From positions 1,178,001 through 1,242,000 of the forward strand of contig CP037918.1 in NCBI GenBank assembly GCA_019356535.1: a stretch of DNA of 64,000 nucleotides, given 5' to 3'. This document shows, in pieces, positions 29,815 to 50,473 of this stretch (position 1 is the stretch's first letter; each line of letters begins with the position of its first letter). Both the position numbers and the translations under genes were made by a program. This DNA comes from Chromatiaceae bacterium (GTDB lineage Bacteria; Pseudomonadota; Gammaproteobacteria; Chromatiales; Chromatiaceae). The notes beneath the pieces are model-generated. The model did not search any database and was not told the origin of the DNA. It saw only the letters and a program-made list of their open reading frames with translations.

Positions 29815-29891
29815 CGGAGCGTAGCGCAGCCTGGTAGCGCACCACAATGGGGTTGTGGGGGTCGGGAGTTCGAATCTCCCCGCTCCGACCA
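29815..29891 (+). tRNA. proL: tRNA-Pro (anticodon GGG)
   Basis: A 77-base tRNA including an encoded CCA. The acceptor stem CGGAGCG/CGCTCCG is perfect. The D arm is GCGCAGCCTGGTAGCGC, the anticodon stem is CCACA/TGTGG with loop ATGGGGT giving anticodon GGG, and the T arm holds GTTCGAATC. It reads CCC and CCU proline codons. Its own promoter and terminator flank it. Confidence 0.95.
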
Positions 29892-30946: not shown

Positions 30947-32989
30947 CTAGAACAGCCCCAGCCAGCCTTTTTTCCTGCCCTGTTGTTCGACCAGTGCAAG
31001 GAGCCGTTCGTCGCCCGAGGCGCGTGCCAGATCGACCGGCGAGTCGTCGTTGTGGTTGCGCAGGCGCAGGTCAGCCCCACGCTCGAGCAGCAGGCGCACC
31101 GCGTCGTGCCGGTGGTTGACGATGGCGAGCATGAGGGCGGTATTGCCTTTCTTGTTTCGCCAGTCCAGCGTTGCGCCGGCCTTCAGCAGGGCGTTCATGA
31201 CCGTGGCATGGCCGCGTCCGGCCGCCACCATCAGAGGGGTGTTGCCGGCCTTGTCCGTGGAATCCACCGGGATGCCTGCCTTGAGCAGTTCATCTACCCA
31301 GTCGAGGGAGCCGACGCGCGCTGCTTCGTGAAGCAGGGTGGCGCCGTTGGTATCCCGATAGCCTGTCGAGGCGCCATTGCGCAGCAGCAGGCGGCCGAGC
31401 TCCAGTTGCCCGCTGGTGACCGCGAGCGACAGGGCGCTACGGCCGTGGCGGTCGCGCTGGTCCGGTTTGCGGACATGCTGGATGAGCAGGCGTGCCAGCT
31501 GGTCGTTCTGTGCCTCGATGGCGCGCATCAGCGGGGTGATCCCGTCCTTGTCGGCACGATCCGGGCTGGCGCCAGCGGCGATGAGTTGCCTGACGATCTC
31601 GGCGGAGCCGCGGCGCACTGCCGCCAGCAGCGGATTTTCACCCCGGGAGCCGCCGGCGTCCGGGCGGGCACCGGCATCCAGGAGTGCGGCGACAGCCCTG
31701 GTGTGCCCCTGTTCGGCCGCCCAGTACAGCGGAGTGCCCCGGGTGCGCTTGTCGTTTATTGGCGCGCCGGCGCGCAACAGGGCCTTTATGGTGGCGACAT
31801 CACCATTCCAGGCGGCGCGGGTGAGCGGTGAATGGCCTTCGGCGTCAACTTCGTCGATGCGGGCGCCGTTCTCGATGAGATGCTCGACCAGTTCGGCATC
31901 ACCCTGCCAGGCGGCGAGCATCAACGGCGACCAGCCGGCGTGTTGGCCCTTGCCCTGGGTGGTCTGACGCAAGGCGTGCAGGCGGGCTTCGGCACTGACC
32001 GCGGGTCGGGGACGACGGGCCACGGCCACGGGCCTGGCCCCTGCCTTGCGCAGCAGGGTTTGCAGTTCGGGCTTGCCGCGTGCCAGTTCCAGCGGTCCTG
32101 CACCCTTGTCGTTGGTGATGTTCACACGGGCGCCGCCGGCCAGCAGGGCGCGTGCCGCTTCAGTATGGCCACGTGCCACGGCGGCCAGCAGCGGGGTGTT
32201 GCCCAGCTTGTCCTTGTGATGAATGTCCGCACCGCCGGCGAGCAGGGCCTTGATGCTCTCGACATCGCCATTGCCGGCTGCGGCGAGCAGGGGAGTATCG
32301 CCGTAGCGATCCGCGAGGTTGGGATTGGCGCCGTGCTGCAACAGCAGGCGCACGGCCTTCGGGTGCCGGTTGGCGGCGGCCTCGATCAAGGCGGTGCGGC
32401 CGTACTTGTCGCGGGCGTTGATCTTGATGCCCTTTTTTCCAAGCAGTTTGCGCAGGCGCTCGAGATCGCCAGCGAGCGCGGCCTGGCGCAGGCGTTCGGC
32501 AGCCGCGACCTGCTTGCCGGCAAGCAACAGGTGTTCGTCGTCACGTGGCGATCTGTCGACCTTGCCGGCGGGCAGTTTTTTCAGGTAGGCGGTGGCACGC
32601 CGGTGGCCCTGGCCGCTGGCCTTTTCCAGCCACTCGCGGGCGCGCGCGCGATCGGCCTTTACCCCCCAGCCGCGGGCGTACATCACGCCGATGTTGTACT
32701 GGGCATCCTTGTGTCCTTGAAGGGCAGCCTTTTCGAACCAATGGGCGGCCTTGGCGTGGTCGACCTTCACGCCACGGCCCGTGCGATAGAGCGCGCCCAG
32801 GCGATACTGGGCTTCGGCATTGCCCTCGTTGGCGAGGCGTTTCAACAGTGCAGCCGCCTTGTCGAAGTTGCGCTGACGGACGGCCAGTTCGACAGCCTGC
32901 AGGTCGGTGCTTGCATCGGCCAGGACTGTGTCAAACGGGGCCAGGGCCGTCAGCGACAACAGGCAGCCCAGGAATAAACGGGTTTTCAT
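30947..32989 (-). CDS. Secreted Sel1-repeat plus ankyrin-repeat protein
   Basis: A 680-residue exported repeat protein. It has a signal peptide (RLFLGCLLSLTALAPFDTVL), then Sel1-type repeats at about residues 45-150 (AQYRLGALYRTGRGVKVDHA and AQYNIGVMYARGWGVKADRA). From about 170 to 670 there are some 14 ankyrin repeats with the G-TPL-AA pattern (GRTALIEAAANRHPKAVRLL, GNTPLLAAVARGHTEAARAL). It is a protein-protein scaffold with no catalytic domain. The start is four bases after the stop of the upstream flavoprotein gene, so the two are one operon. Its place beside the multiheme cytochrome genes suggests a periplasmic scaffold or assembly role, which is inference. Confidence 0.85.
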   Translation of the reverse strand: MKTRLFLGCLLSLTALAPFDTVLADASTDLQAVELAVRQRNFDKAAALLKRLANEGNAEAQYRLGALYRTGRGVKVDHAKAAHWFEKAALQGHKDAQYNIGVMYARGWGVKADRARAREWLEKASGQGHRRATAYLKKLPAGKVDRSPRDDEHLLLAGKQVAAAERLRQAALAGDLERLRKLLGKKGIKINARDKYGRTALIEAAANRHPKAVRLLLQHGANPNLADRYGDTPLLAAAGNGDVESIKALLAGGADIHHKDKLGNTPLLAAVARGHTEAARALLAGGARVNITNDKGAGPLELARGKPELQTLLRKAGARPVAVARRPRPAVSAEARLHALRQTTQGKGQHAGWSPLMLAAWQGDAELVEHLIENGARIDEVDAEGHSPLTRAAWNGDVATIKALLRAGAPINDKRTRGTPLYWAAEQGHTRAVAALLDAGARPDAGGSRGENPLLAAVRRGSAEIVRQLIAAGASPDRADKDGITPLMRAIEAQNDQLARLLIQHVRKPDQRDRHGRSALSLAVTSGQLELGRLLLRNGASTGYRDTNGATLLHEAARVGSLDWVDELLKAGIPVDSTDKAGNTPLMVAAGRGHATVMNALLKAGATLDWRNKKGNTALMLAIVNHRHDAVRLLLERGADLRLRNHNDDSPVDLARASGDERLLALVEQQGRKKGWLGLF

Positions 32990-32993
32990 GGGG

Positions 32994-34304
32994 TCACGCT
33001 TCTCCACGTTTGGTGACGACCTCGATGCCGATCCGTTCCAGGAAGGGGGTGGGCAGGATGCCACCCGCGTTGATGATGACGGCATCGTTGGGAATCTCGA
33101 TACGTTCGCCTTCCTGATCGAGGACGACGTGGTCCGGGTGAATCTCCTTGACATTGGATTTGAGCAGGAGATCGATGCGTCCGTCCTCGACCATGCGCTC
33201 CAGACGTTCGCGGTTCTTGCGCTTGGCGCGGGTGATGGCGCCGCTGCGATAGGACAGGGTGACGGTGGTGTCTGGTTGCTCGGCGATCGAGCAGGCGGCC
33301 TCCAGGGCCGAGTCGCCACCGCCGACGACCAGCACCTTCTGGCCCCGGTATTGCTCGGGATCGATCATCCGGTAGACCACCTTGGGCTGATCTTCGCCGG
33401 GCACGCCCAGCTTGCGCGGGGTGCCGCGCCGCCCCAGGCAGAGCAGGAGGTGACGGGTACGGTATTCACCCTTGGTGGTGACCACGCGGAAGCCGTCGTT
33501 CTCCTTGTGCACCTCATCGAGGCGTTCGCTGTAGTGGATCTCCACGCCGGTTTCGCGCTCGACCTTCTGCCAGAAGGCGAGCAGTTCTTCTTTCTGCAAC
33601 TCGCGAAACTTGACCAGGCCGACGATCGGGAGCTCGGCCGGCTGGGTCATGACCAGCTTGCCGCGCGGAAACTGGAACACAGTGCCCCCCAGAGAGTCCT
33701 GTTCGATGGTGCGGTAGCGCAGGCCGTGCTGTTTGGCCCCCAGGGTGGCGGAGAAGCCGGCCGGACCTGCGCCCACGATGAGCACATCCAGCCAGTCGCC
33801 TGTGGCCTTGTTTTCCTTGCAGCGCCGGGCGATCACGTCCATGGCTTGTCGGCCCTGGGTGATGGCGTTGCGGATCAGGCCCATGCCGCCCAGCTCGCCG
33901 GCAATGAAGATGCCGGGCACATTGGTCTCGAATTCCTCGGAGACCAGTGGCAAGTCCACGCCACGGCGTTCGGTACCGAACACCAGGGTGATGGCGTCGT
34001 GCGGACAGGCCGCCCGACAGGCGCCATGACCGATGCAGTCGGTGGGGTTTATCAGTTCCACCCGGCCGCGAATCATGCCGAGCACGAAGTGTCCCGGTTG
34101 TTCCGGGCAGGCGCTTACGCAGGCGCCGCACCCCTTGCAGCGTGCTGGATCGATCTTGGGATGCAGCGAGGCCGGTTCGGTCAGTCCGGCGGCCGCGGCC
34201 TCGGAGCGCAAGGTGCGGGCCTTGCGTTCATGCCGGCCCTTGAGGCCGCCGTAGATAGCCCAGATGGCCATCAGAAGGACGATATAGGGAGCACTCTCGA
34301 TCAT
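32994..34304 (-). CDS. Membrane-anchored ferredoxin/flavoprotein oxidoreductase
   Basis: A 436-residue protein. One N-terminal membrane helix (MIESAPYIVLLMAIWAIYGG) precedes a two-cluster ferredoxin domain at about residues 50-115. The first cluster is canonical (CKGCGACVSACP). The second has His for the second Cys (CIGHGACRAACP). Then comes a thioredoxin-reductase-like FAD/NAD(P)H half: DVLIVGAGPAGFSATLG (FAD), KVLVVGGGDSALEAACSI (NAD(P)H) and IINAGGILPTPFLERIGI. The CxxC redox pair of true thioredoxin reductases is absent, so electrons probably pass between NAD(P)H, FAD and the iron-sulphur clusters. It is divergent from the cytochrome genes and coupled to the ankyrin gene. Confidence 0.88.
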   Translation of the reverse strand: MIESAPYIVLLMAIWAIYGGLKGRHERKARTLRSEAAAAGLTEPASLHPKIDPARCKGCGACVSACPEQPGHFVLGMIRGRVELINPTDCIGHGACRAACPHDAITLVFGTERRGVDLPLVSEEFETNVPGIFIAGELGGMGLIRNAITQGRQAMDVIARRCKENKATGDWLDVLIVGAGPAGFSATLGAKQHGLRYRTIEQDSLGGTVFQFPRGKLVMTQPAELPIVGLVKFRELQKEELLAFWQKVERETGVEIHYSERLDEVHKENDGFRVVTTKGEYRTRHLLLCLGRRGTPRKLGVPGEDQPKVVYRMIDPEQYRGQKVLVVGGGDSALEAACSIAEQPDTTVTLSYRSGAITRAKRKNRERLERMVEDGRIDLLLKSNVKEIHPDHVVLDQEGERIEIPNDAVIINAGGILPTPFLERIGIEVVTKRGEA

Positions 34305-34590
34305 GCGTATCGTTGGGTGATTCGTGAAACAGATCGCATTTCGTCATCGCTTCGGGAACGAAGTTAACGCTTCGACCATCGAAAGCCCGGAACATTCCCT
34401 GCGATTGTCTACGATGGTATGCATCGGCTGGATACGGTCGGCAGGGTTTTCAGGCCGCGTTTCATGCATCCGGGCGAGCCCTGAGTCTGGCCGAACCTGG
34501 AGGGGAACGCCTTGATCCAGTTCACGACCTGACCTCGGTGAACAGGTCGTAAAGCGTGATTTCATCGCTCAGGACATATCCGAGGGTCCC

Positions 34591-35463
34591 ATGTCATTTG
34601 TGCAGGTTTCATCGAGACGGAAAGAGATGGCGATATCGAGCGAATGGCGACGCCAGATGATCTATATCGTGACGTCGGCGGTGATCCTGCTGCCGCTGTG
34701 GGTGGCCTGGCAGCAACGCGAATATCGCTACATCACGCCGGAGCAGGGCCTGGGGTACTGGTTGGGCATCATTGGCGCTTCGCTGATGCTGTTGTTGCTG
34801 CTGTATCCACTGCGCAAGCGTTCGCGGGCGATGGCGCGTTTCGGTACGGTGCGACAGTGGTTCATCGTGCATCAGCTGTTCGGGATGCTGGGGCCGATGC
34901 TGATCGTGCTGCATTCGAATTTCTCATTGGGTTCGCTGAATGGGCGCATTGCATTGGTCAGCATGTTGACGGTCGCCTTCAGCGGTCTGATCGGACGTTA
35001 TCTGTATGGGCGCTCGCATCATGGTATGGCCGGCCATCGCGAGGCACTGGCCCTGCTGCGTGCCGAGGAAGCGCAGCAACGCCGGGGGTTGCGGGTGTTT
35101 TTCGAGCGGGTTCCTGGACTGGAAGAAGAGTTGCAGGCGCTGGAAGGTTCGCTGGCCGCTCATGATGAAGGTTTCGTAGGGGCGGCGCGTGCCGCGCTGT
35201 CGGTCGGACGCCGGGCGCGCCGGGTGCGGCGCAAGGCCTTGCGGGCGTTGCGTGCCGCTGTGCGGCGCGCTCCGGCCGGCGAGAAACTCGACTACCGGGA
35301 GATCCGGCGCGAGATCCAGGCCTATATCCGTACCGCAGTGAAAGTGGCCCAGTTCGATTTCTTCGAGCGCTTGTTGTCCCTGTGGCATATGCTGCACATG
35401 CCATTGTTCATCCTGCTGATTATCACGGCGGTCTTCCACGTCATCGCGGTCCACATGTACTGA
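34591..35463 (+). CDS. His-rich polytopic membrane protein, b-type-cytochrome-like
   Basis: A 290-residue inner-membrane protein with about five helices: MIYIVTSAVILLPLWVAW, YWLGIIGASLMLLLLLYPL, WFIVHQLFGMLGPMLIVLHS, RIALVSMLTVAFSGLIGRYL, and LLSLWHMLHMPLFILLIITA continuing into FHVIAVHMY. Histidines sit in helix 3 (HQLFG, LHSNF) and the last helix (WHMLHM, FHVIAVH), spaced as in diheme b-type quinol oxidoreductases and ferric-reductase-like proteins. A charged helical loop of about 130 residues lies between helices 4 and 5. Heme b binding is inferred. An in-frame ATG at 34627 is an equally good start. It sits 16 bases before the 24-heme cytochrome and probably passes electrons to it. Confidence 0.75.
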   Translation: MSFVQVSSRRKEMAISSEWRRQMIYIVTSAVILLPLWVAWQQREYRYITPEQGLGYWLGIIGASLMLLLLLYPLRKRSRAMARFGTVRQWFIVHQLFGMLGPMLIVLHSNFSLGSLNGRIALVSMLTVAFSGLIGRYLYGRSHHGMAGHREALALLRAEEAQQRRGLRVFFERVPGLEEELQALEGSLAAHDEGFVGAARAALSVGRRARRVRRKALRALRAAVRRAPAGEKLDYREIRREIQAYIRTAVKVAQFDFFERLLSLWHMLHMPLFILLIITAVFHVIAVHMY

Positions 35464-35478
35464 CCCGGAGCGTCAAAT

Positions 35479-37251
35479 ATGTATTTCCGCACCTATCTTC
35501 TGGCCATGGCCTTGCTGGTTGTGGCCTGGTTGCCAGCGCCGGGGAGCGCGGCGTTCTGGGAGAAGGCCGTCATGCCCGGGGAGCTGACCCAGGCGCACGC
35601 CGAGATCGAGGCAGACTGTGACAGTTGCCATGAGAAATTCCGCAAGAAAGGTCAGGTTCGCAAGTGCCTGGCCTGTCATGAGCATGCCGATATCGCACGC
35701 GACATCGAGCGCAAGGAAGGTTTTCATGGCCGCCTGGGGCGCCTGGCCAGTGATGGCTGCGATACCTGTCATGGCGAGCACCTGGGCCGCGATGCCGATA
35801 TCGTGAACCTCGATCGTGCGGCGTTCGATCATTCACGGACCGATTTCGCCTTGAAGGGTGGGCATGTTGGCCTGTCGTGCAACGCCTGTCACGAGGAGGG
35901 GAAAAAGTTTCGCGACGCGCCCGGCGCTTGCATCGATTGCCACAAGTCGGACGATGCGCATGCCGGCAAGCTCGGCACGCAGTGTGCCGACTGTCACAGC
36001 GAAAGCGGTTGGCGCAAGGCGGAGTTCGATCACGACAAGACGGATTTCTCGCTGCGTGGCAAGCACAAGCAAGTGGCCTGCCTGCGCTGCCATGCAGGTA
36101 ATCACTACAAGGGTGTGCCCAAGACCTGCGTCGCCTGTCACCGGCAGAATGACGTGCACAACGGCGATTATGGCGAGCAGTGCCAGGAGTGTCACAGCAG
36201 CCGCAAGTGGGATGCCATCATCTTCGATCACGACAAGGAGACCGATTACCCATTGCGTGGCGCGCATCGCAAGGCCGCTTGTGATGGTTGTCACCAGGGC
36301 AACCTCAAGAAGAACAAGCCGAAGAAGCAGTGCGTCGCCTGCCACCGCAAGGATGACTGGCACAAGGGGCGTAACGGCGACAAGTGTGAGTCCTGTCATC
36401 GCGAGGACCGGTGGAGCAACACCCAGTTCGATCATTCGAAGACGCGTTTTCGCCTGACCGGCAAGCACCGTGACATCGAATGCGTCGCCTGTCACAAGGG
36501 GAACCCCCGTGACGAACGCAACCGACGCGCCTGCGAGTCCTGTCACCTGGCCGATGATGTGCACAAGGGCGGGGCAGGACCCCAGTGCGCGGATTGCCAC
36601 AGTCCGCAGGGCTGGAAGCAGGTGCGTTTCGACCACCAGCGCGACACGGGATTTGCGCTCAAGGGGCGTCATTCGAAACTGGAGTGCTTTGCTTGTCATC
36701 GCCAGGCGCCAAAGGCTGCGCCGCTGGCCACCAGTTGTTACGACTGCCACCGTGAGGACGATGTCCACAAGGGCGCCCAGGGGCGGCAGTGCGCGCGTTG
36801 CCACAACGAAAACGATTGGGCTGGACAAGTGCGCTTCGATCACGATCTCAGCGCGTTCCCGTTGATCGGCCAGCACGCGTTGGCCTCATGCGAGGCCTGT
36901 CACGAATCGAGCAATTTCAAAGACGCGTCGACCGAGTGCGTTGCCTGTCACAAGGAAGACGATGTGCACAGGCAGACACTGGGCAGGGATTGTGCCCTGT
37001 GTCACAACCCCAATGCCTGGAGTGCCTGGCTGTTCGACCACGACAAGCAGACCCGATTCAGGATCGAGGGTGCGCATCGCGAGCTGGTTTGCGCTGACTG
37101 TCACACGCGTGCGGTCGACGAGGTGGTGCAGTCGCGACAATGTGTCGCATGTCACGCGCAAGACGACGTACATGAAGGAGACTTCGGCAGGCGTTGTGAT
37201 CGCTGCCATGGACAGGACACCTTCAGAAATCCCGTATTCAATCATCCATGA
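35479..37251 (+). CDS. 24-heme c-type cytochrome
   Basis: A 590-residue secreted protein (signal LLAMALLVVAWLPAPGSAA) with 24 CxxCH motifs by direct count. After two N-terminal motifs the rest is built of a 66-residue triheme repeat occurring about seven times. Each unit runs CxxCH, then FDH, then F-x-L-x-G-x-H before the second CxxCH, then a third CxxCH followed by a D-D/N-V-H. The extra histidines can supply distal ligands, so most hemes are probably bis-His and low potential. There is no transmembrane anchor or lipobox, so it is probably periplasmic. Its stop overlaps the possible upstream start of the next cytochrome by ATGA. Confidence 0.95.
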   Translation: MYFRTYLLAMALLVVAWLPAPGSAAFWEKAVMPGELTQAHAEIEADCDSCHEKFRKKGQVRKCLACHEHADIARDIERKEGFHGRLGRLASDGCDTCHGEHLGRDADIVNLDRAAFDHSRTDFALKGGHVGLSCNACHEEGKKFRDAPGACIDCHKSDDAHAGKLGTQCADCHSESGWRKAEFDHDKTDFSLRGKHKQVACLRCHAGNHYKGVPKTCVACHRQNDVHNGDYGEQCQECHSSRKWDAIIFDHDKETDYPLRGAHRKAACDGCHQGNLKKNKPKKQCVACHRKDDWHKGRNGDKCESCHREDRWSNTQFDHSKTRFRLTGKHRDIECVACHKGNPRDERNRRACESCHLADDVHKGGAGPQCADCHSPQGWKQVRFDHQRDTGFALKGRHSKLECFACHRQAPKAAPLATSCYDCHREDDVHKGAQGRQCARCHNENDWAGQVRFDHDLSAFPLIGQHALASCEACHESSNFKDASTECVACHKEDDVHRQTLGRDCALCHNPNAWSAWLFDHDKQTRFRIEGAHRELVCADCHTRAVDEVVQSRQCVACHAQDDVHEGDFGRRCDRCHGQDTFRNPVFNHP

Positions 37252-37265
37252 TCAGAGGTATCGGT

Positions 37266-39650
37266 ATGAATCAGGCATCACGACTGGGTGCTGTCACCCG
37301 GCACATGAGACGGCTGGGAGTGGCGCTGGCAGTGCAGCTCGGTTTTCTGATGTTGTTTCTCCCGACGTCGGTCCTGGCTGCCCCCTCGAAAGCCTTCGAC
37401 CACTTCACCACGGGATATCCGCTGACGGGTGCGCACGCGCGCCTGGAATGCAGCTCCTGTCACATCCGTGGGCGTTTCAAGGGGACGCCCCAGCAGTGCA
37501 GTGCCTGTCACGACGGCATTCATGCACCGGGCAAGTCGCCTTCCCACGTCCCGAGCGTCGGGCAGTGCGACGATTGTCACAACGAACGGAACTTCAACGA
37601 GGCGGTGTTCGATCACAGCAATGCCACCGGCTCCTGCGTGAAGTGCCACAATGGTGTAGTCGCAATGGGCAAGCATGCCGGTCACATTGCGACTGCCGCA
37701 CCGTGCGAAACCTGTCACCGCACGTCGAGCTGGAGCAGTGTCCAGTTTGATCACTCCCAGGTAACGGGCACCTGTCAAAGCTGTCACAATGGCATCAAGG
37801 CCAGAGGCAAGCATGCGCGTCACATCCCGACGAGCGCAGACTGTGTCGAGTGCCACAGCACGGTCTCCTGGAGCAGCGGCCGCTTCGACCATGCCAATGT
37901 CTCGGGCAATTGCTCGACCTGCCACAATGGATCGACCGCGACGGGCAAGCGTGGCAACCATGTCATTACGACGGCTCAATGCGACACCTGCCATACCACC
38001 AAGGCCTGGGTGCCGGCGAATTTCGATCATTCCAAGGTCAATACCAGCCAGTGCAGCAGCTGCCATAACGGCATCCGTGCCACTGGAAAAACGCCCAATC
38101 ACGTGACGACCTCCGCCGACTGCAAGACGTGCCATACCACCAAGGCCTGGCTGCCGGCCGGCTTCGATCACAGCGGGGTCACCGGTTCGTGCAGCAGTTG
38201 TCACAACGGTACCCAGGCCACCGGCAAGCCGAACGGCCACATTCCGACCACGCAGCAGTGCGACACCTGTCATACCACCAGTGGTTGGCTTCCCACGCAC
38301 TTCGATCATCAGGGCGTGTCCGGCCAGTGCAGCAGTTGCCATAACGGCAGCACGGCCACGGGCAAGCCGGCCACACACGTGCCGACCACGGCGCAGTGCG
38401 ATACCTGCCACACGACCGGTGGCTGGAAGCCGGCACGCTTCGATCACTCGGGCGTGAGTGGCGCCTGCACGACCTGCCACAATGGTGCGATTGCCACGGG
38501 CAAGCCGGCCGCGCACATCCCCACCACGGCACAGTGCGACACCTGTCACTCGACCAAGGGATGGCTGCCGGCTGGCTTCGATCACGCCAATGTGACGCAG
38601 CCGTGCAGTACCTGCCACAACGGTAACTCGGCTACAGGCAAGCCGGCCACGCACGTGCCGACCACAGCCCAGTGCGATACCTGTCACAGCACCAAGGGCT
38701 GGACCCCGGCCAAGTTCGATCATTCCGGTGTGACCGGTGCCTGTGCGAGCTGCCACAATGGGGCAACGGCCACGGGCAAACCGGCCGGACACGTGGTGAC
38801 CAATTCGTCCTGTGACCTTTGTCATACGACCAAGGCCTGGACCCCGGCCAACTTCGATCACAGTGGCGTGACCGGCAGCTGCTCGACCTGCCATAACGGC
38901 AGCACGGCCACGGGCAAGCCGGCCACGCACGTGCCGACCACAGCCCAGTGCGATACCTGTCACAGCACCAAGGGCTGGACCCCGGCCAGGTTCGACCATT
39001 CCGGCGTGACCGGAAATTGCTCGAGTTGCCACAACGGCAGCACGGCTACCGGCAAGCCGAATGATCACGTGGCCACGACCGCGCAGTGCGATCTGTGTCA
39101 TACGACCAAGAGCTGGACGCCGGCCGGTTTCGATCACAGTGGCGTGACCGGCAGCTGCTCGAGTTGCCACAACGGCAGCACGGCTACGGGTAAACCGTCG
39201 ACACACATCCCGACCACGGCGCAGTGCGATTCGTGTCACACTACCAAGGGCTGGTTGCCGGCGCGCTTCGACCACAGTGGCGTCACTGGCAATTGCGCGA
39301 GCTGCCACAATGGCAGCACCGCCACGGGCAAGCCCTCGGGCCATTTCGTCACCAACCAGGATTGTGCGTCTTGTCACTCGACCAATGGATGGACACCGGC
39401 ACGCAACTATGTGCACAACAGCCCGAACTATCCCGATCATGGCCGGCTTGATTGCGTGGACTGCCATACCAGCAACAGCCAGACCATTCCCTGGCCCTTC
39501 CCGGCCTATGCTCCGGATTGTGCGGCCTGTCATGCCAAGGACTGGGAAGCGGGCCCGCACAAGGGTGCGAGCATCTCGCAACTGCGCAACTGCGCGGGTC
39601 TGTGTCACAAGTCCAAGCCGGAGCACAGTCCCAGAAAGAAAGACTGGTAA
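37266..39650 (+). CDS. 31-heme c-type cytochrome made of tandem diheme repeats
   Basis: A 794-residue secreted cytochrome with 31 canonical CxxCH motifs plus one final CAGLCH (CxxxCH) that might bind a 32nd heme. From about residue 80 to 680 it consists of thirteen 46-residue repeats. Each has CxxCH, a GW-x-P-x-x-FDH segment, a second CxxCHNG, ATGK and a further His (THVPTT). There are thus two hemes and two extra histidines per unit, fitting bis-His ligation. I chose ATG 37266 because AGAGG sits seven bases upstream; the ATG at 37248 has no ribosome site. A chain of this length would be long enough to span the periplasm or project from the cell. Confidence 0.93.
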   Translation: MNQASRLGAVTRHMRRLGVALAVQLGFLMLFLPTSVLAAPSKAFDHFTTGYPLTGAHARLECSSCHIRGRFKGTPQQCSACHDGIHAPGKSPSHVPSVGQCDDCHNERNFNEAVFDHSNATGSCVKCHNGVVAMGKHAGHIATAAPCETCHRTSSWSSVQFDHSQVTGTCQSCHNGIKARGKHARHIPTSADCVECHSTVSWSSGRFDHANVSGNCSTCHNGSTATGKRGNHVITTAQCDTCHTTKAWVPANFDHSKVNTSQCSSCHNGIRATGKTPNHVTTSADCKTCHTTKAWLPAGFDHSGVTGSCSSCHNGTQATGKPNGHIPTTQQCDTCHTTSGWLPTHFDHQGVSGQCSSCHNGSTATGKPATHVPTTAQCDTCHTTGGWKPARFDHSGVSGACTTCHNGAIATGKPAAHIPTTAQCDTCHSTKGWLPAGFDHANVTQPCSTCHNGNSATGKPATHVPTTAQCDTCHSTKGWTPAKFDHSGVTGACASCHNGATATGKPAGHVVTNSSCDLCHTTKAWTPANFDHSGVTGSCSTCHNGSTATGKPATHVPTTAQCDTCHSTKGWTPARFDHSGVTGNCSSCHNGSTATGKPNDHVATTAQCDLCHTTKSWTPAGFDHSGVTGSCSSCHNGSTATGKPSTHIPTTAQCDSCHTTKGWLPARFDHSGVTGNCASCHNGSTATGKPSGHFVTNQDCASCHSTNGWTPARNYVHNSPNYPDHGRLDCVDCHTSNSQTIPWPFPAYAPDCAACHAKDWEAGPHKGASISQLRNCAGLCHKSKPEHSPRKKDW
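37450..39370 (+). repeat. 138-bp tandem coding repeat within the 31-heme cytochrome
   Basis: The diheme repeats are also conserved as DNA: successive 138-base units share runs such as ACGGCAGCACGGC-ACGGGCAAGCC and TGCGATACCTGTCA. The units from about 38600 to 39330 are the most alike, which suggests recent duplication or homogenisation. Such tracts are prone to copy-number change and to assembly collapse. Confidence 0.85.
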
Positions 39651-39659
39651 AGCGGCCTC

Positions 39660-40142
39660 ATGCGCTGGATAAGGGTGGGTTGTTGCTGGCTCGCCGGCCT
39701 GATGGCGGGTCAGCACACCCTTGCCGGTACGGGTTCTCAGGGCCTCATTGACGAGGTGGTCGTTACCCGTTCTGCCGAATGTCACAGAATTGCCATTCGC
39801 TTGTACAGGCCGTTCATGGTGATCGGGCGATTGCCGCTGGGCGCGACAAGGTATTTCTATGTCTTCGGCCATGCATTGCCTGCGGGAGACGGGTCGTCTT
39901 CACGCGGGCAGATCAGCTTGTTCAGAGAGCGGGCCAACCTGTCTGGTTCGACGCCTGAGTGGCTCTTGTCGGTCGTTCATATCGCAGACATGCCTGGATT
40001 GCAGATGTTATTGGTCGAAGCCGATTCGCCAAGACCGTTTCGGCTGCTACCGCAACGGGATCCCAGAAAGGTGATCGTCGAGTCCCCGGTGGACCCCGGC
40101 TCTTCGGGATGTCCGCTGGAAGTGGAAAATGCAGGGGAGTAA
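39660..40142 (+). CDS. Small secreted protein of the cytochrome cluster
   Basis: A 160-residue protein with an N-terminal hydrophobic signal (VGCCWLAGLMAGQHTLAG), nine bases after the 31-heme gene and three bases before the barrel gene, so it is part of that operon. The mature part looks beta-rich (DEVVVTRSAECHRIAIRLYR, YFYVFGH, EWLLSVVHI, LQMLLVEA) and resembles the AMIN-like start of the next gene (both have VxVxx...RIxIRLxxPM-type strands). It has no CxxCH motif. A Cys at SAECH and one at SSGCP might form a disulphide. No family is recognised; a periplasmic partner of the barrel is the best guess. Confidence 0.7.
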   Translation: MRWIRVGCCWLAGLMAGQHTLAGTGSQGLIDEVVVTRSAECHRIAIRLYRPFMVIGRLPLGATRYFYVFGHALPAGDGSSSRGQISLFRERANLSGSTPEWLLSVVHIADMPGLQMLLVEADSPRPFRLLPQRDPRKVIVESPVDPGSSGCPLEVENAGE

Positions 40143-40145
40143 TCA

Positions 40146-42617
40146 ATGAGCAGCGACAAGAGGAAAGCCACAATCGCCGAGTATCTGTACAGGATCGGTA
40201 CGTTGTGGCTGCTGGTGGCCGCGGGTGCGGCACATGCCGCTTCCGTCTTCGAAGGTGTCACCGTGGAGCAGGAAGGTTCGCGTACCGTGGTACGCATCGT
40301 GTTTACTGCGCCCATGCGTTACCAGAACCACACGCCTGCAAGGGTGGGGCGCGAATTGCGGATCGTTGTGAAACCACTCGCCCCAGACGCCTTCCCCCAG
40401 AGTGCACTCTATGGCCGGGAGAGTCGGGGCTGGGGGGCGGATGAGCCGCACCCGTTGCGCAACCTGCGCTACGAGGGCACACGCACCACCGGATCGATAC
40501 TCACCCTGCAGTTTGCGCGCAGTATCGAGTTCAATGTCCGAAGCACGCCCGATCTCCGGAGTATCGTGGTGACCCTCCCCAGCAAAACGAAGAAAGAGGA
40601 GGTCACCCAGCCTGCGGACAAGACCTATTCGGAAGTGATGGGCAAGGCCCCGGCACAGGCGCCCGTCACCCGACCCGTGGCGCCAAAGGGACGTTATGTA
40701 CTGTATCTTCTTTCCGATACCCGCCCGATCGATACCACCAAGGTGAAGCGACCCGAGGGGTTTGCCGACAAGGAACTGTTCGTCAGTGAGGCGGATGTTC
40801 GTGGGCGTCACTGGTATCGGCTGACCCTGGGATATTTCAAGAGCAAGTCCGAAGCCAAGGCGGCTCGCTCGGCAATCAGCAAAAGCTACCCAAAGGCCTG
40901 GATCGGCTTGTCCCGACAGGCAGCCGCGGGCGCGACCATCACGAAGGCGGCAAGGACTGGAACGCTCTCCGGCAGGGACATGGGGCAGGTGATACAGGCT
41001 GGCCGCGATGCCATGACCGATGGCAAGTATCGTCGTGCCATTCGCTTGTTCACGGCGGTTCTCGAAGGTTCGGACCCGCGTTATCACCAGGAGGCGCTGG
41101 AATTGCTGGGTCTGGCCCGAGAGCGCCTGGGACAGTTGGCGCAGGCCAAGGCGGTGTACGAAAAGTATCTCCAGCGTTATCCCAAGGGGGATGACGCCGA
41201 CAGGGTGCGCCAGCGCCTGGCGGGTGTCTTGACGGCGACGCCTGGCGAGCGGGAGACGCAGGCGCTGGCAGCAGCGGAGAAGAAGGCAGCCAAGCGGCGT
41301 GAGCGGCCGGCGCGTTGGGAGTGGTATGGCAGTCTGTCTCAGGAATATTTCCGCGATCAGACGACTTCGGCGGACGATCCGGCGAATGTGTCGGTCAACT
41401 CGTCGCGCCTGACCTCCTCATTGGACATGACCACGCGTCGGCGCAGTGCGGATTACGATATCCGTACCCGTACCAATGTGCAGCACCAGCGCGATTTCAT
41501 CAGCAACAGCAAGCCGGACACCTATGCGATCTCCGACTTCTACCTGGAGGTCAAGCAAAAGGCCTCGGGCGCCAGACTGAAAGTGGGGCGCCAGCGACAG
41601 AACGGCAGTGGCGTGCTGGGCCGTTTCGATGGCCTGTTGGTCGGCTATCCGCTGAGCGATACCATCACGAGCAATTTCGTGGCAGGTTTTCCAGTGGATC
41701 TCAATGACAATACCAAGTTGCAGAAAGAGATCAGCTTCGCCGGTTTGAGCGCCGACATCACGCCGGTCGATTCCGACTGGAGTTACAACGTCTTCTTCAT
41801 CCAGCAACAGAACGATGGGGTCCTCGATCGTCGGGCGATAGGTGGCGAAGTACGCTATTTTTCGGACGACAAGTCGCTGTTTACCCAATTCGACTACGAC
41901 CTCTCCTATCGGGCGCTCAATATCTTTCTCACCCAGTTCAACTGGAACCTGACGGACCGTGACACGATTTACGCTACCTTCGATTCCCGACTGAGCCCGA
42001 CACTCACCACGGGCAATGCCTTGACAGGGCAGACTGCAAGAACGTTGGGAGGGTTGCTGTTGACCAATACCGAGTCCCAGGTACGCCAATTGGCCATCGA
42101 CCGCACGCCGCGCACTACGAGCGTGACGGTTGGTGGGTCGCATCGCTTGCGCGAGGATCTCCAGGTCAACGGAGACATCACGGCAACAAGGACGGGCAGT
42201 ACTCCGGCATCGGGTGGCGTGGCGGCAACGCCAGCGACCGACCTTGAATGGCTCTACAGCCTGCAATTCATTGGCAACGATCTGTTCAGCGACGGCGACA
42301 GCCTGATCCTGGGCCTGCGCTACAGCAACACGACACCGGCCAATATCTTTGCCTTCAACGTCGATGCGCGGCAGCCCCTGCCGCTCGGATGGCGGATCAA
42401 CCCCCGGGTGCTCGTGGAATATCGTTCGCCCAAGGGGACGGCTACCTCGAGGCGGACCCTGGTCAAGCCGTCGATTCGCGCCGAATACAAGTACTCTCGC
42501 AATCTTGAAATCAATCTGGAAGGCGGTATCGATTGGACGCGCGAGAACAATCCCACGACGGGCAACACGAGCAATCTCGGTTACTTCGTGTCGATGGGCT
42601 ATCGCTGGGACTTCTAG
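40146..42617 (+). CDS. Outer-membrane beta-barrel with AMIN-like, SPOR-like and TPR segments
   Basis: An 823-residue protein. The signal peptide ends near residue 31 (LLVAAGAAHAAS). An AMIN-like beta domain follows (about 32-140, GSRTVVRIVFTAPMRYQN), then a SPOR-like domain (about 178-260, GRHWYRLTLGYFKSKSEAKA), TPR-like repeats (about 275-360, GKYRRAIRLFTAVLEGSD and AKAVYEKYLQRYPKG), and from about 390 to the end a series of amphipathic strands. The last residues, MGYRWDF, show the C-terminal aromatic signature recognised by BamA. The barrel is about 430 residues, enough for 18-24 strands. Ending the operon after the cytochromes, it is the natural candidate for the porin of a porin-cytochrome conduit, although it is not visibly related to MtrB. 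Confidence 0.82.
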   Translation: MSSDKRKATIAEYLYRIGTLWLLVAAGAAHAASVFEGVTVEQEGSRTVVRIVFTAPMRYQNHTPARVGRELRIVVKPLAPDAFPQSALYGRESRGWGADEPHPLRNLRYEGTRTTGSILTLQFARSIEFNVRSTPDLRSIVVTLPSKTKKEEVTQPADKTYSEVMGKAPAQAPVTRPVAPKGRYVLYLLSDTRPIDTTKVKRPEGFADKELFVSEADVRGRHWYRLTLGYFKSKSEAKAARSAISKSYPKAWIGLSRQAAAGATITKAARTGTLSGRDMGQVIQAGRDAMTDGKYRRAIRLFTAVLEGSDPRYHQEALELLGLARERLGQLAQAKAVYEKYLQRYPKGDDADRVRQRLAGVLTATPGERETQALAAAEKKAAKRRERPARWEWYGSLSQEYFRDQTTSADDPANVSVNSSRLTSSLDMTTRRRSADYDIRTRTNVQHQRDFISNSKPDTYAISDFYLEVKQKASGARLKVGRQRQNGSGVLGRFDGLLVGYPLSDTITSNFVAGFPVDLNDNTKLQKEISFAGLSADITPVDSDWSYNVFFIQQQNDGVLDRRAIGGEVRYFSDDKSLFTQFDYDLSYRALNIFLTQFNWNLTDRDTIYATFDSRLSPTLTTGNALTGQTARTLGGLLLTNTESQVRQLAIDRTPRTTSVTVGGSHRLREDLQVNGDITATRTGSTPASGGVAATPATDLEWLYSLQFIGNDLFSDGDSLILGLRYSNTTPANIFAFNVDARQPLPLGWRINPRVLVEYRSPKGTATSRRTLVKPSIRAEYKYSRNLEINLEGGIDWTRENNPTTGNTSNLGYFVSMGYRWDF

Positions 42618-50110: not shown

Positions 50111-50473
50111 TGGTGGAGGCGGCGGGAGTCGAACCCGCGTCCGCGGATCCTCCGCCCTCGGTTCTACATGCTTAGTCGGTCTATTTTATTTGACCGCTGG
50201 CCGCCCGACCGACAGGGCAGTTCAGCGGCGAGTCCGGTAAGGGTTTAGCGATTTGGCCCCGGACGAGCCGCCTCGCGATCCCGTGAGAATCGACGCCTCG
50301 AACCTGGACGCACGGGCACGGCTCCAGTGAGACGGCACCCTACCGGGTATTAAGCGGCGAGTGCGTAGTTGTCGTCGTTGGCAACTATTGGATTTGCAGT
50401 GGATTTACGAGGTAACTGCACCTCGGCATGCACCTTGGGTTTTGCAATCCACGTCGAATGCCGTGTCGCCCCC
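50111..50473 (-). ncRNA. ssrA: tmRNA (ssrA)
   Basis: A 363-base one-piece tmRNA. The 5' end GGGGGCG pairs with CGCCTCC before the 3' ACCA, forming the alanine acceptor stem. The T-arm GTTCGAC and the GGCATTCGACG opening are typical. The tag frame at 50350-50382 encodes ANDDNYALAA followed by TAA, ending in the Ala-Leu-Ala-Ala degradation signal read by ClpXP. It rescues ribosomes stalled on broken messages. smpB, encoding its protein partner, is 65 bases upstream on the same strand. A TAGAAT -10-like box precedes the 5' end by about 20 bases, so the primary transcript is probably processed. Confidence 0.96.

Follow-up and report, generated by a model that had tools for sequence, protein, structure and literature searches.

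Among the described porin-cytochrome conduits, the one called PCC3 comprises, according to the parts of He et al. 2017 (PMC5566968) on which we draw here and below, a barrel, an extracellular cytochrome with a median of 34 hemes, a periplasmic cytochrome with a median of 21 hemes and an inner membrane protein (IMP) of about 300 amino acids (aa) with five helices, of which helix 4 bears the motif SGXXG and helices 3 and 5 each bear WX3HX13H, a histidine spacing that the same authors noted to be that of ferric reductase and NADPH oxidase. Here we analyse a stretch of 64,000 nucleotides (the window) from a Chromatiaceae bacterium (GCA_019356535.1, contig CP037918.1, positions 1,178,001 to 1,242,000), in which seven open genes, divergent and tightly packed, lie intact at positions 30947-42617 of the stretch. 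We favour, with modest confidence, the view that this cluster encodes a PCC3 conduit with a dedicated NAD(P)H flavoprotein as its cytoplasmic end, through which electrons probably run outward. PCC3 is already known, and it is the link to the NAD(P)H flavoprotein that goes beyond the literature found: in the parts covered of PMC10734462, PMC12442390, PMC8788666, PMC13386937 and PMC12016527 the system is described without a flavoprotein or ankyrin partner, and the literature text searched held no earlier mention of either partner, figures and supplements lying outside that search, so that absence is unproven.

Components of a PCC3 conduit

Two genes stand on the minus strand, namely those of a Sel1-ankyrin repeat protein (P0001) and of the flavoprotein (P0002), and the other five on the plus strand, with 4, 286, 15, -4, 9 and 3 intergenic bases along the cluster. 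The 4 bases lie between the ankyrin and flavoprotein genes, and the 286 form the divergent gap (34305..34590, no strand), in which a promoter scan found no sigma-70-like site. The original prediction of seven tightly packed divergent genes that include a 24-heme and a 31-heme cytochrome was borne out by the open reading frames (ORFs), all of them open, by the counts of 24 and 31 CXXCH motifs and by Pfam.

The IMP gene (P0003; 34591..35463, plus strand) encodes 290 aa, which motifs, hydrophobic segments and a structure model predict to form a di-heme b protein. The PCC3 IMP features that were tested are all present, i.e. a length of about 300 aa, five helices, both WX3HX13H motifs and an SGXXG motif (here SGLIG), and the motifs, at 90, 131 (SGLIG) and 265, lie in order within the last three of the five hydrophobic stretches (21-42, 52-76, 89-109, 116-138 and 260-290). 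The protein had been called His-rich, which 10 His in 290 aa do not bear out, yet four of these (His 94, 108, 269 and 283) stand at heme-ligand spacing and are invariant in 31 sequences. In the structure model (predicted local distance difference test, pLDDT, 86) the long helices match the hydrophobic segments, and additional helices at 153-226 would, judging by charge, lie in the cytosol. No Pfam or NCBIfam family scored above cut-off (best Pfam match DUF4405, E 0.047), the Pfam ferric reductase membrane domain was not matched, and a sequence search of the PDB returned no convincing relative (best E 0.082).

The first cytochrome c (P0004; 35479..37251, plus strand), presumably the periplasmic wire, carries 24 CXXCH motifs at 24.6 aa per heme, with three motifs per ~68 aa, and the second (P0005; 37248..39650, plus strand), presumably the extracellular wire, carries 31 plus one CX3CH at 25.8 aa per heme. 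Both match cytochrome c7/c3 in Pfam and, with their very many hemes, lie within the 22-39 aa per heme of PCC3; neither is of the decaheme MtrA/DmsE type, P0005 scoring 106.9 and P0004 20.9 bits against a DmsE-family profile with a cut-off of 192.2 bits. In the two sets of loci described below, first cytochromes were counted unless their ORF reached the end of a locus or began further from the IMP end than -500 to +700, which excludes, for instance, a 22-motif ORF in L064. Of the 73 ORFs so counted in the named set, 71 encode 18, 21, 24 or 27 hemes, and all 41 in the class set encode 18, 21 or 24. Only L090 and L096 depart from this, each with an ORF of 8 motifs; that of L096 is followed by one of 13 motifs and is therefore probably split. 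The second cytochrome varies from 5 to 67 hemes in counted ORFs of the named set. Such a pattern, with steps of three hemes in the first cytochrome and free variation in the second, would follow if a wire that spans the periplasm needs a set length and an outer wire does not.

Larger second cytochromes were also encountered: that of Bradyrhizobium sp. BR13661 (L190:447-11609, which extends L101) reaches 123 CXXCH within a single frame that runs 3721 codons from stop to stop, with a PCC3 porin after it, and that of L191, an extension of L091, shows at least 95 before its contig ends. The largest heme number named in the parts of He et al. 2017 used here is 85 (PMC5566968).

The presumed outer-membrane barrel, or porin (P0007; 40146..42617, plus strand; 823 aa), has an N-terminal domain, SPOR and TPR (Pfam) and is called a barrel on the basis of its C-terminal sequence and its family, in which a few of 21 members show weak barrel matches in Pfam. 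SPOR occurs in 14 and TPR_16 in 15 of these 21 members, which would fit a hold on peptidoglycan. The family is present in 53 of 81 loci and adjoins the cytochrome genes in the window, and the window genome holds no match to MtrB_PioB (PF11854) at E 0.001. Just before the barrel gene lies that of a small secreted protein (P0006; 39660..40142, plus strand; 160 aa), which has no Pfam or NCBIfam family above cut-off and is possibly a paralogue of the N-terminal domain of the barrel protein. Its link to the N-terminal porin profile runs via the L099 protein alone, in a loose alignment; a direct BLASTP comparison with the barrel N-terminus was negative, and the porin profile did not match P0006. Small ORFs that do match the porin profile number 23, or 17 once two fragments and four duplicates across locus sets are removed, and these 17 match its first ~130 positions and lie mostly just before the barrel gene.

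The Sel1-ankyrin protein (P0001; 30947..32989, minus strand), secreted and presumably a periplasmic scaffold, was listed as an ORF whose first 110 residues overlap P0002 and are probably not part of the protein. Translation more likely starts at residue 111, i.e. at ATG 32989 (MKTRLFLG), 4 bases past the flavoprotein gene, and gives 680 aa with an N-terminus that looks, by eye, like a signal peptide. Pfam detects Sel1 and ankyrin repeats in every one of 21 aligned members of the family, as well as in all 4 shorter members from alphaproteobacteria that were scanned.

A permuted flavoprotein predicted to use NAD(P)H

The flavoprotein (P0002; 32994..34304, minus strand; 436 aa; 4Fe-4S and Pyr_redox in Pfam), predicted to be membrane-anchored, is a circularly permuted thioredoxin-reductase-like enzyme that would use flavin adenine dinucleotide (FAD) and NAD(P), with two predicted iron-sulfur (Fe-S) sites. 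Residues 170-435 of its structure model have the YpdA/thioredoxin reductase fold (7a7b: Z 21.7, root-mean-square deviation, rmsd, 3.6 over 264 residues), and the YpdA profile matches with E 1.3e-49, below the NCBIfam cut-off. The last segment of this fold sits at ~107-161, N-terminal of the core instead of at the C-terminus, an order common to all 31 aligned members. The case for permutation rests mainly on the unpermuted relatives in L180, L181 and L183: residues 152-427 of P0002 align with 31-322 of the L180 protein and residues 107-161 with 322-375, and the order is the same in L181 and L183. In addition, residues 237-286 of a thioredoxin reductase in the PDB (5nii) match P0002 107-156, with E 0.0035 for the segment alone. 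Re-ordering the segments improved the best PDB score by little, from 96.0 bits to 102.6, and in the native order residues 123-353 are also collinear with AhpF.

The flavin domain has no Cys conserved in the 31 sequences, the Cys pair of thioredoxin reductase being absent, and the flavoprotein is therefore not a thiol reductase. Arg 353 and Arg 359 are invariant in the aligned members; we take such arginines to mark NADPH over NADH in thioredoxin reductases. At the Fe-S sites, Cys 56, 62, 66, 90, 96 and 100 are kept in 31 of 31 sequences and Cys 59 in 30. The two-cluster ferredoxin that had been read into this protein thus has its two Fe-S motifs, but the second does not hold four Cys: it reads CxxHxxCxxxC, with His 93 replacing a Cys in 31 of 31 sequences, and this motif suggests a His-ligated or three-iron cluster.

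Linkage and distribution across genomes

Two samples of genomes were used. The named set consists of the window and the best 80 of 162 relatives found by searching genome contigs with a profile of the IMP alignment, i.e. 81 loci in all, and the family profiles were seeded with the window proteins, iterated and trained on these same loci. Their titles are mostly those of Alpha- or Gammaproteobacteria or unplaced Proteobacteria, with four metagenome-assembled genomes (MAGs) titled Nitrospira, Nitrospirae, Nitrospinaceae and Deltaproteobacteria; the closest IMP among the best 80 of 162 relatives is that of a Sedimenticola MAG (L024). The class sample, which overlaps partly with the named set, consists of 369 genomes drawn evenly from the class, independent of similarity. 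Here 61 genomes had any IMP match, and a cut at E 1e-45 for a strong IMP, which was our own choice (weakest genome kept 1e-47, next genome 2e-19), dropped 19 of them, five of which were examined (L180-L184); the flavoprotein was called at E 1e-60.

In the class sample a strong IMP is present in 42 genomes, the flavoprotein in 45 and both in 41, so that the flavoprotein accompanies 41 of 42 strong IMPs and occurs in 4 of the 327 other genomes (Fisher p ~1e-48, uncorrected for shared ancestry). In the single strong-IMP genome without a called flavoprotein (G223), a weak fragment of one lies next to the IMP, and the flavoprotein-only genomes are two with fragments (G131, G333), one that is 72% complete (G210) and one with a longer relative (G172). 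The direct link to NAD(P)H, which the original prediction had inferred from one genome, is thereby strengthened and, with the function of the enzyme predicted from its sequence, appears to be a supported general feature of PCC3.

The two genes are also close neighbours. The flavoprotein lies at most 10 kb from the IMP in 36 of the 41 class genomes. In the named set, in which many contigs end early, it was found in 77 of 81 loci and the ankyrin protein in 70, and among loci with at least 6 kb upstream, window included, these counts become 55 and 52 of 56. The end of the flavoprotein ORF is less than 1.5 kb from the IMP ORF in 55 of the 81 loci, further away in 21, on the far side in one, and the flavoprotein is absent from four; as for orientation, 59 loci have both the flavoprotein and the ankyrin gene on the strand opposite to the IMP, and 9 have them on its own strand. 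Of named-set loci with good flank on both sides (n=44), 43 hold the flavoprotein, 41 the ankyrin protein, 41 the porin and 44 a cytochrome, and 38 hold all of them, so that the search for the same gene order elsewhere that had been proposed does find linked genes in many genomes; the corresponding class loci (n=28) give 26, 25, 26, 27 and 20. Because the same genes are linked in so many genomes, the arrangement is more than chance.

Clusters that lack the barrel or the cytochromes, which had been named as grounds for abandoning a conduit, turned up, and only as exceptions: L065 and L067, L103, and the distant L180, L181 and L183. In L065 and L067 an IMP, a 21-heme cytochrome and a porin stand without a second cytochrome in the stretch covered, and L103 holds the ankyrin protein, the IMP and cytochromes with no flavoprotein or porin match. 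L180, L181 and L183 combine a distant IMP with a 10-heme cytochrome and an unpermuted FAD and Fe-S protein of 810-860 aa, without a PCC3 porin match; in L180 and L181 Pfam finds in this protein, besides the FAD domain in unpermuted order, two domains that bind cNMP and, at the C-terminus, one of ferredoxin type.

Among 72,556 plasmid records the flavoprotein was found once at E 1e-60, namely on plasmid pEMTOL02 of Emticicia oligotrophica (Bacteroidota; L186, NC_018749.1), in a PCC3-like operon on one strand that is headed by its own CcsA. The operon encodes an IMP with both His motifs and SGVVG, a flavoprotein that is 47% identical, cytochromes with 23 and 40 hemes and, in the place of the porin, a 538-aa protein without Pfam match; the ankyrin protein had no match in it.

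Two loci of Lamellibrachia symbionts, L087 and L095, have a gene for a response regulator, by Pfam of LuxR type in L087, placed between those of the flavoprotein and the IMP. The window genome is complete (2.745 Mb), and only 2 of 8 genomes of its genus, its own included, have an IMP, so that the cluster is patchy in this genus and comes and goes among close relatives. The gene next to the cluster, 247 bases beyond that of the barrel, encodes an aldehyde dehydrogenase and was left out of it; the flanks hold ordinary genes, e.g. those of phenylalanyl-tRNA synthetase beta, an MscS-type channel and Hsp70, and the window also contains a tRNA-Pro (ggg) at 29815-29891 and a tmRNA at 50111-50473.

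Direction of electron flow and known systems

In the mechanism that we propose, NAD(P)H, more likely NADPH, would reduce the FAD of the permuted thioredoxin-reductase-like domain at the cytosolic face, and the electrons would pass from there to two Fe-S clusters, one of them probably His-ligated, and on to two b-hemes held by the four IMP histidines, the step from flavoprotein to IMP resembling that in NADPH oxidase and ferric reductase. From the b-hemes they would cross the periplasm along the 24-heme wire, enter the barrel and leave along the 31-heme wire, with the Sel1-ankyrin protein, the SPOR and TPR parts of the barrel and the small secreted protein holding the periplasmic parts in position. 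We take outward flow to be more likely than inward, given the strongly reducing nature of NAD(P)H and a membrane potential that favours the passage of electrons from the inside to the outside. This is the best explanation of what the data contain directly, i.e. gene content, motifs, the fold of the flavin domain, its permutation and the linkage; from these we infer bound cofactors, protein contacts, topology, direction and the extracellular partner. The PCC3 motifs, the near-obligatory flavoprotein, the Emticicia operon, the YpdA fold, the steps of three hemes, the overlay on NADPH oxidase and the expression data from Sideroxydans ES-1 given below all count in its favour. In that overlay the IMP model superposes on the NADPH oxidase of S. 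pneumoniae (8qt6) with rmsd 2.7 over 117 residues and Z 8.5, on Dcytb with rmsd 3.2 over 129 and on cytochrome b561 with rmsd 3.4 over 127 (both Z 8.1), which is support, short of proof, because a Z of 8.5 is possible by chance among helical proteins and because unrelated helical folds of larger rmsd rank among and above the NADPH oxidase row in the VIA overlay list.

Several observations pull the other way. Foldseek found no PDB match for the IMP model at E 0.001. The one hydrophobic stretch of P0002 (1-20), which would be its membrane helix, scores a marginal 1.54; basic residues come after it, so that by the positive-inside rule the remainder would be cytosolic. A Ser replaces one Cys of the first Fe-S site in 1 of 31 sequences and likewise in Emticicia (CxxSxxCxxxC). 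Three loci with good flank, L103, L136 and L151, lack the flavoprotein; for L136 (G034) and L151 (G271, at ~11.6 kb) it lies elsewhere in the genome, as it does in G119, G301 and G218, the two genes being on different contigs in four class genomes. Furthermore, ccm genes stand between the flavoprotein and the IMP in some loci, namely ccmF, a ccmG-like redoxin, ccmH and ccmI in L059 (Pfam) and genes of the same ccmF, ccmG, ccmH and ccmI types in L066, L070, L100, L089 and L093 (by eye). These alphaproteobacterial insertions would fit a role in assembly, in which the flavoprotein, and perhaps the ankyrin protein, would supply reductant for heme attachment to the heme-rich cytochromes and not the working current, and the CcsA at the head of the Emticicia operon fits such a role too. 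We nevertheless judge it improbable: a flavin domain without conserved Cys implies no thiol chemistry, electron transfer accounts better for the Fe-S sites and for the almost one-to-one association with a di-heme b IMP, and in L180, L181 and L183 a FAD/Fe-S protein is paired with an IMP and a cytochrome of only 10 hemes.

The published direction of flow is the more serious competitor, although we hold it to be rather unlikely. Here an extracellular donor (Fe(II), a mineral or a cathode) would feed electrons through the barrel and the periplasmic wire to the IMP and the quinone pool, the flavoprotein being a side enzyme or a maker of NAD(P)H from the same hemes. The window organism is probably autotrophic, because its genome has two RuBisCO matches, and its CO2 fixation would then need electrons. 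However, electrons at the level of Fe(II) or sulfur have to run uphill to yield NAD(P)H directly via transmembrane b-hemes, and the near-obligatory flavoprotein is left unexplained. PCC3 was indeed published as a four-gene, quinone-linked system with inward flow, and it is present in some iron oxidisers (He et al. 2017, PMC5566968) and complete in 26 genomes of a Gallionellaceae survey (PMC10734462). Expression, as far as the cited texts were covered, is divided: in Sideroxydans CL21 one PCC3 copy showed a significant rise of its IMP when the cells could oxidise iron, but PCC3 expression otherwise did not track iron oxidation (PMC12442390), and in Sideroxydans ES-1 both PCC3 clusters had lower expression with Fe(II) than with thiosulfate (PMC8788666).

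A new type of conduit, as the original prediction would have it, was in effect ruled out by the PCC3 motifs and gene order published in 2017 (PMC5566968), and we leave next to no probability for a system unrelated to those described: IMP and small protein lack a curated family and the genome lacks an MtrB_PioB match, but the PCC3 sequence features tested are all there. The trans-envelope conduit built from parts other than those of MtrCAB stands as far as sequence can tell; its novelty does not, its kind being PCC3.

Going beyond the conduit with its own flavoprotein, we suggest, tentatively, that PCC3 may be a quinone-free trans-envelope NADPH oxidase, in which the permuted flavoprotein drives a NOX-like di-heme b protein, and not primarily a quinone-tied iron-oxidising inlet. 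If so, sulfur oxidisers, tubeworm and clam symbionts, bradyrhizobia and other carriers could dump cytosolic reducing power without quinones onto minerals, humics or partners, via a porin-cytochrome conduit that owns its NAD(P)H enzyme. PCC3 is widespread (42 of the 369 class genomes) and figures in published work as a candidate iron oxidase; the near-obligatory flavoprotein offers a testable answer as to its inner coupling, and one that points opposite to the published flow. The flavoprotein and ankyrin genes moreover provide two added markers for the annotation of PCC3, and the flavoprotein, permuted and with a His in a ferredoxin-like site, is an unusual enzyme in its own right.

With MtrCAB, MtoAB and PioAB the cluster would share the layout of periplasmic cytochrome, barrel and outer cytochrome, whereas those systems have a 10-heme MtrA-type cytochrome and an MtrB_PioB barrel in place of the 24 and 31 hemes found here in a genome with no MtrB_PioB match. 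PCC4 and the porin-less IMP-cytochrome clusters of He et al. 2017 resemble it, in the parts of that paper used, in the His motifs of the IMP and in having a redox protein in the cluster; the L180 and L181 relatives, with unpermuted FAD, cNMP-binding and ferredoxin domains, are candidate PCC4 proteins only. YpdA and thioredoxin reductase share the two-domain FAD/NAD(P) fold with P0002, which differs from them in its circular permutation, its lack of a conserved Cys pair, its predicted N-terminal membrane helix and its two predicted Fe-S sites. In the case of NADPH oxidase and ferric reductase (S. pneumoniae NOX, 8qt6), the likeness lies in the predicted di-heme HX13H arrangement, the low-rmsd overlay of membrane helices and, presumably, a cytosolic flavin unit that takes NAD(P)H, but here the flavin protein would be a separate one of thioredoxin reductase type with Fe-S sites, and electrons would go to cytochrome wires and not to O2. 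The closest likeness is to PCC3 itself, with its barrel, its giant outer and periplasmic cytochromes at ~25 aa per heme and its IMP with both WX3HX13H motifs and SGXXG, from whose definition, in the published text covered, the locus differs by the flavoprotein and the Sel1-ankyrin protein, near-constant companions of the conduit in the loci analysed here.

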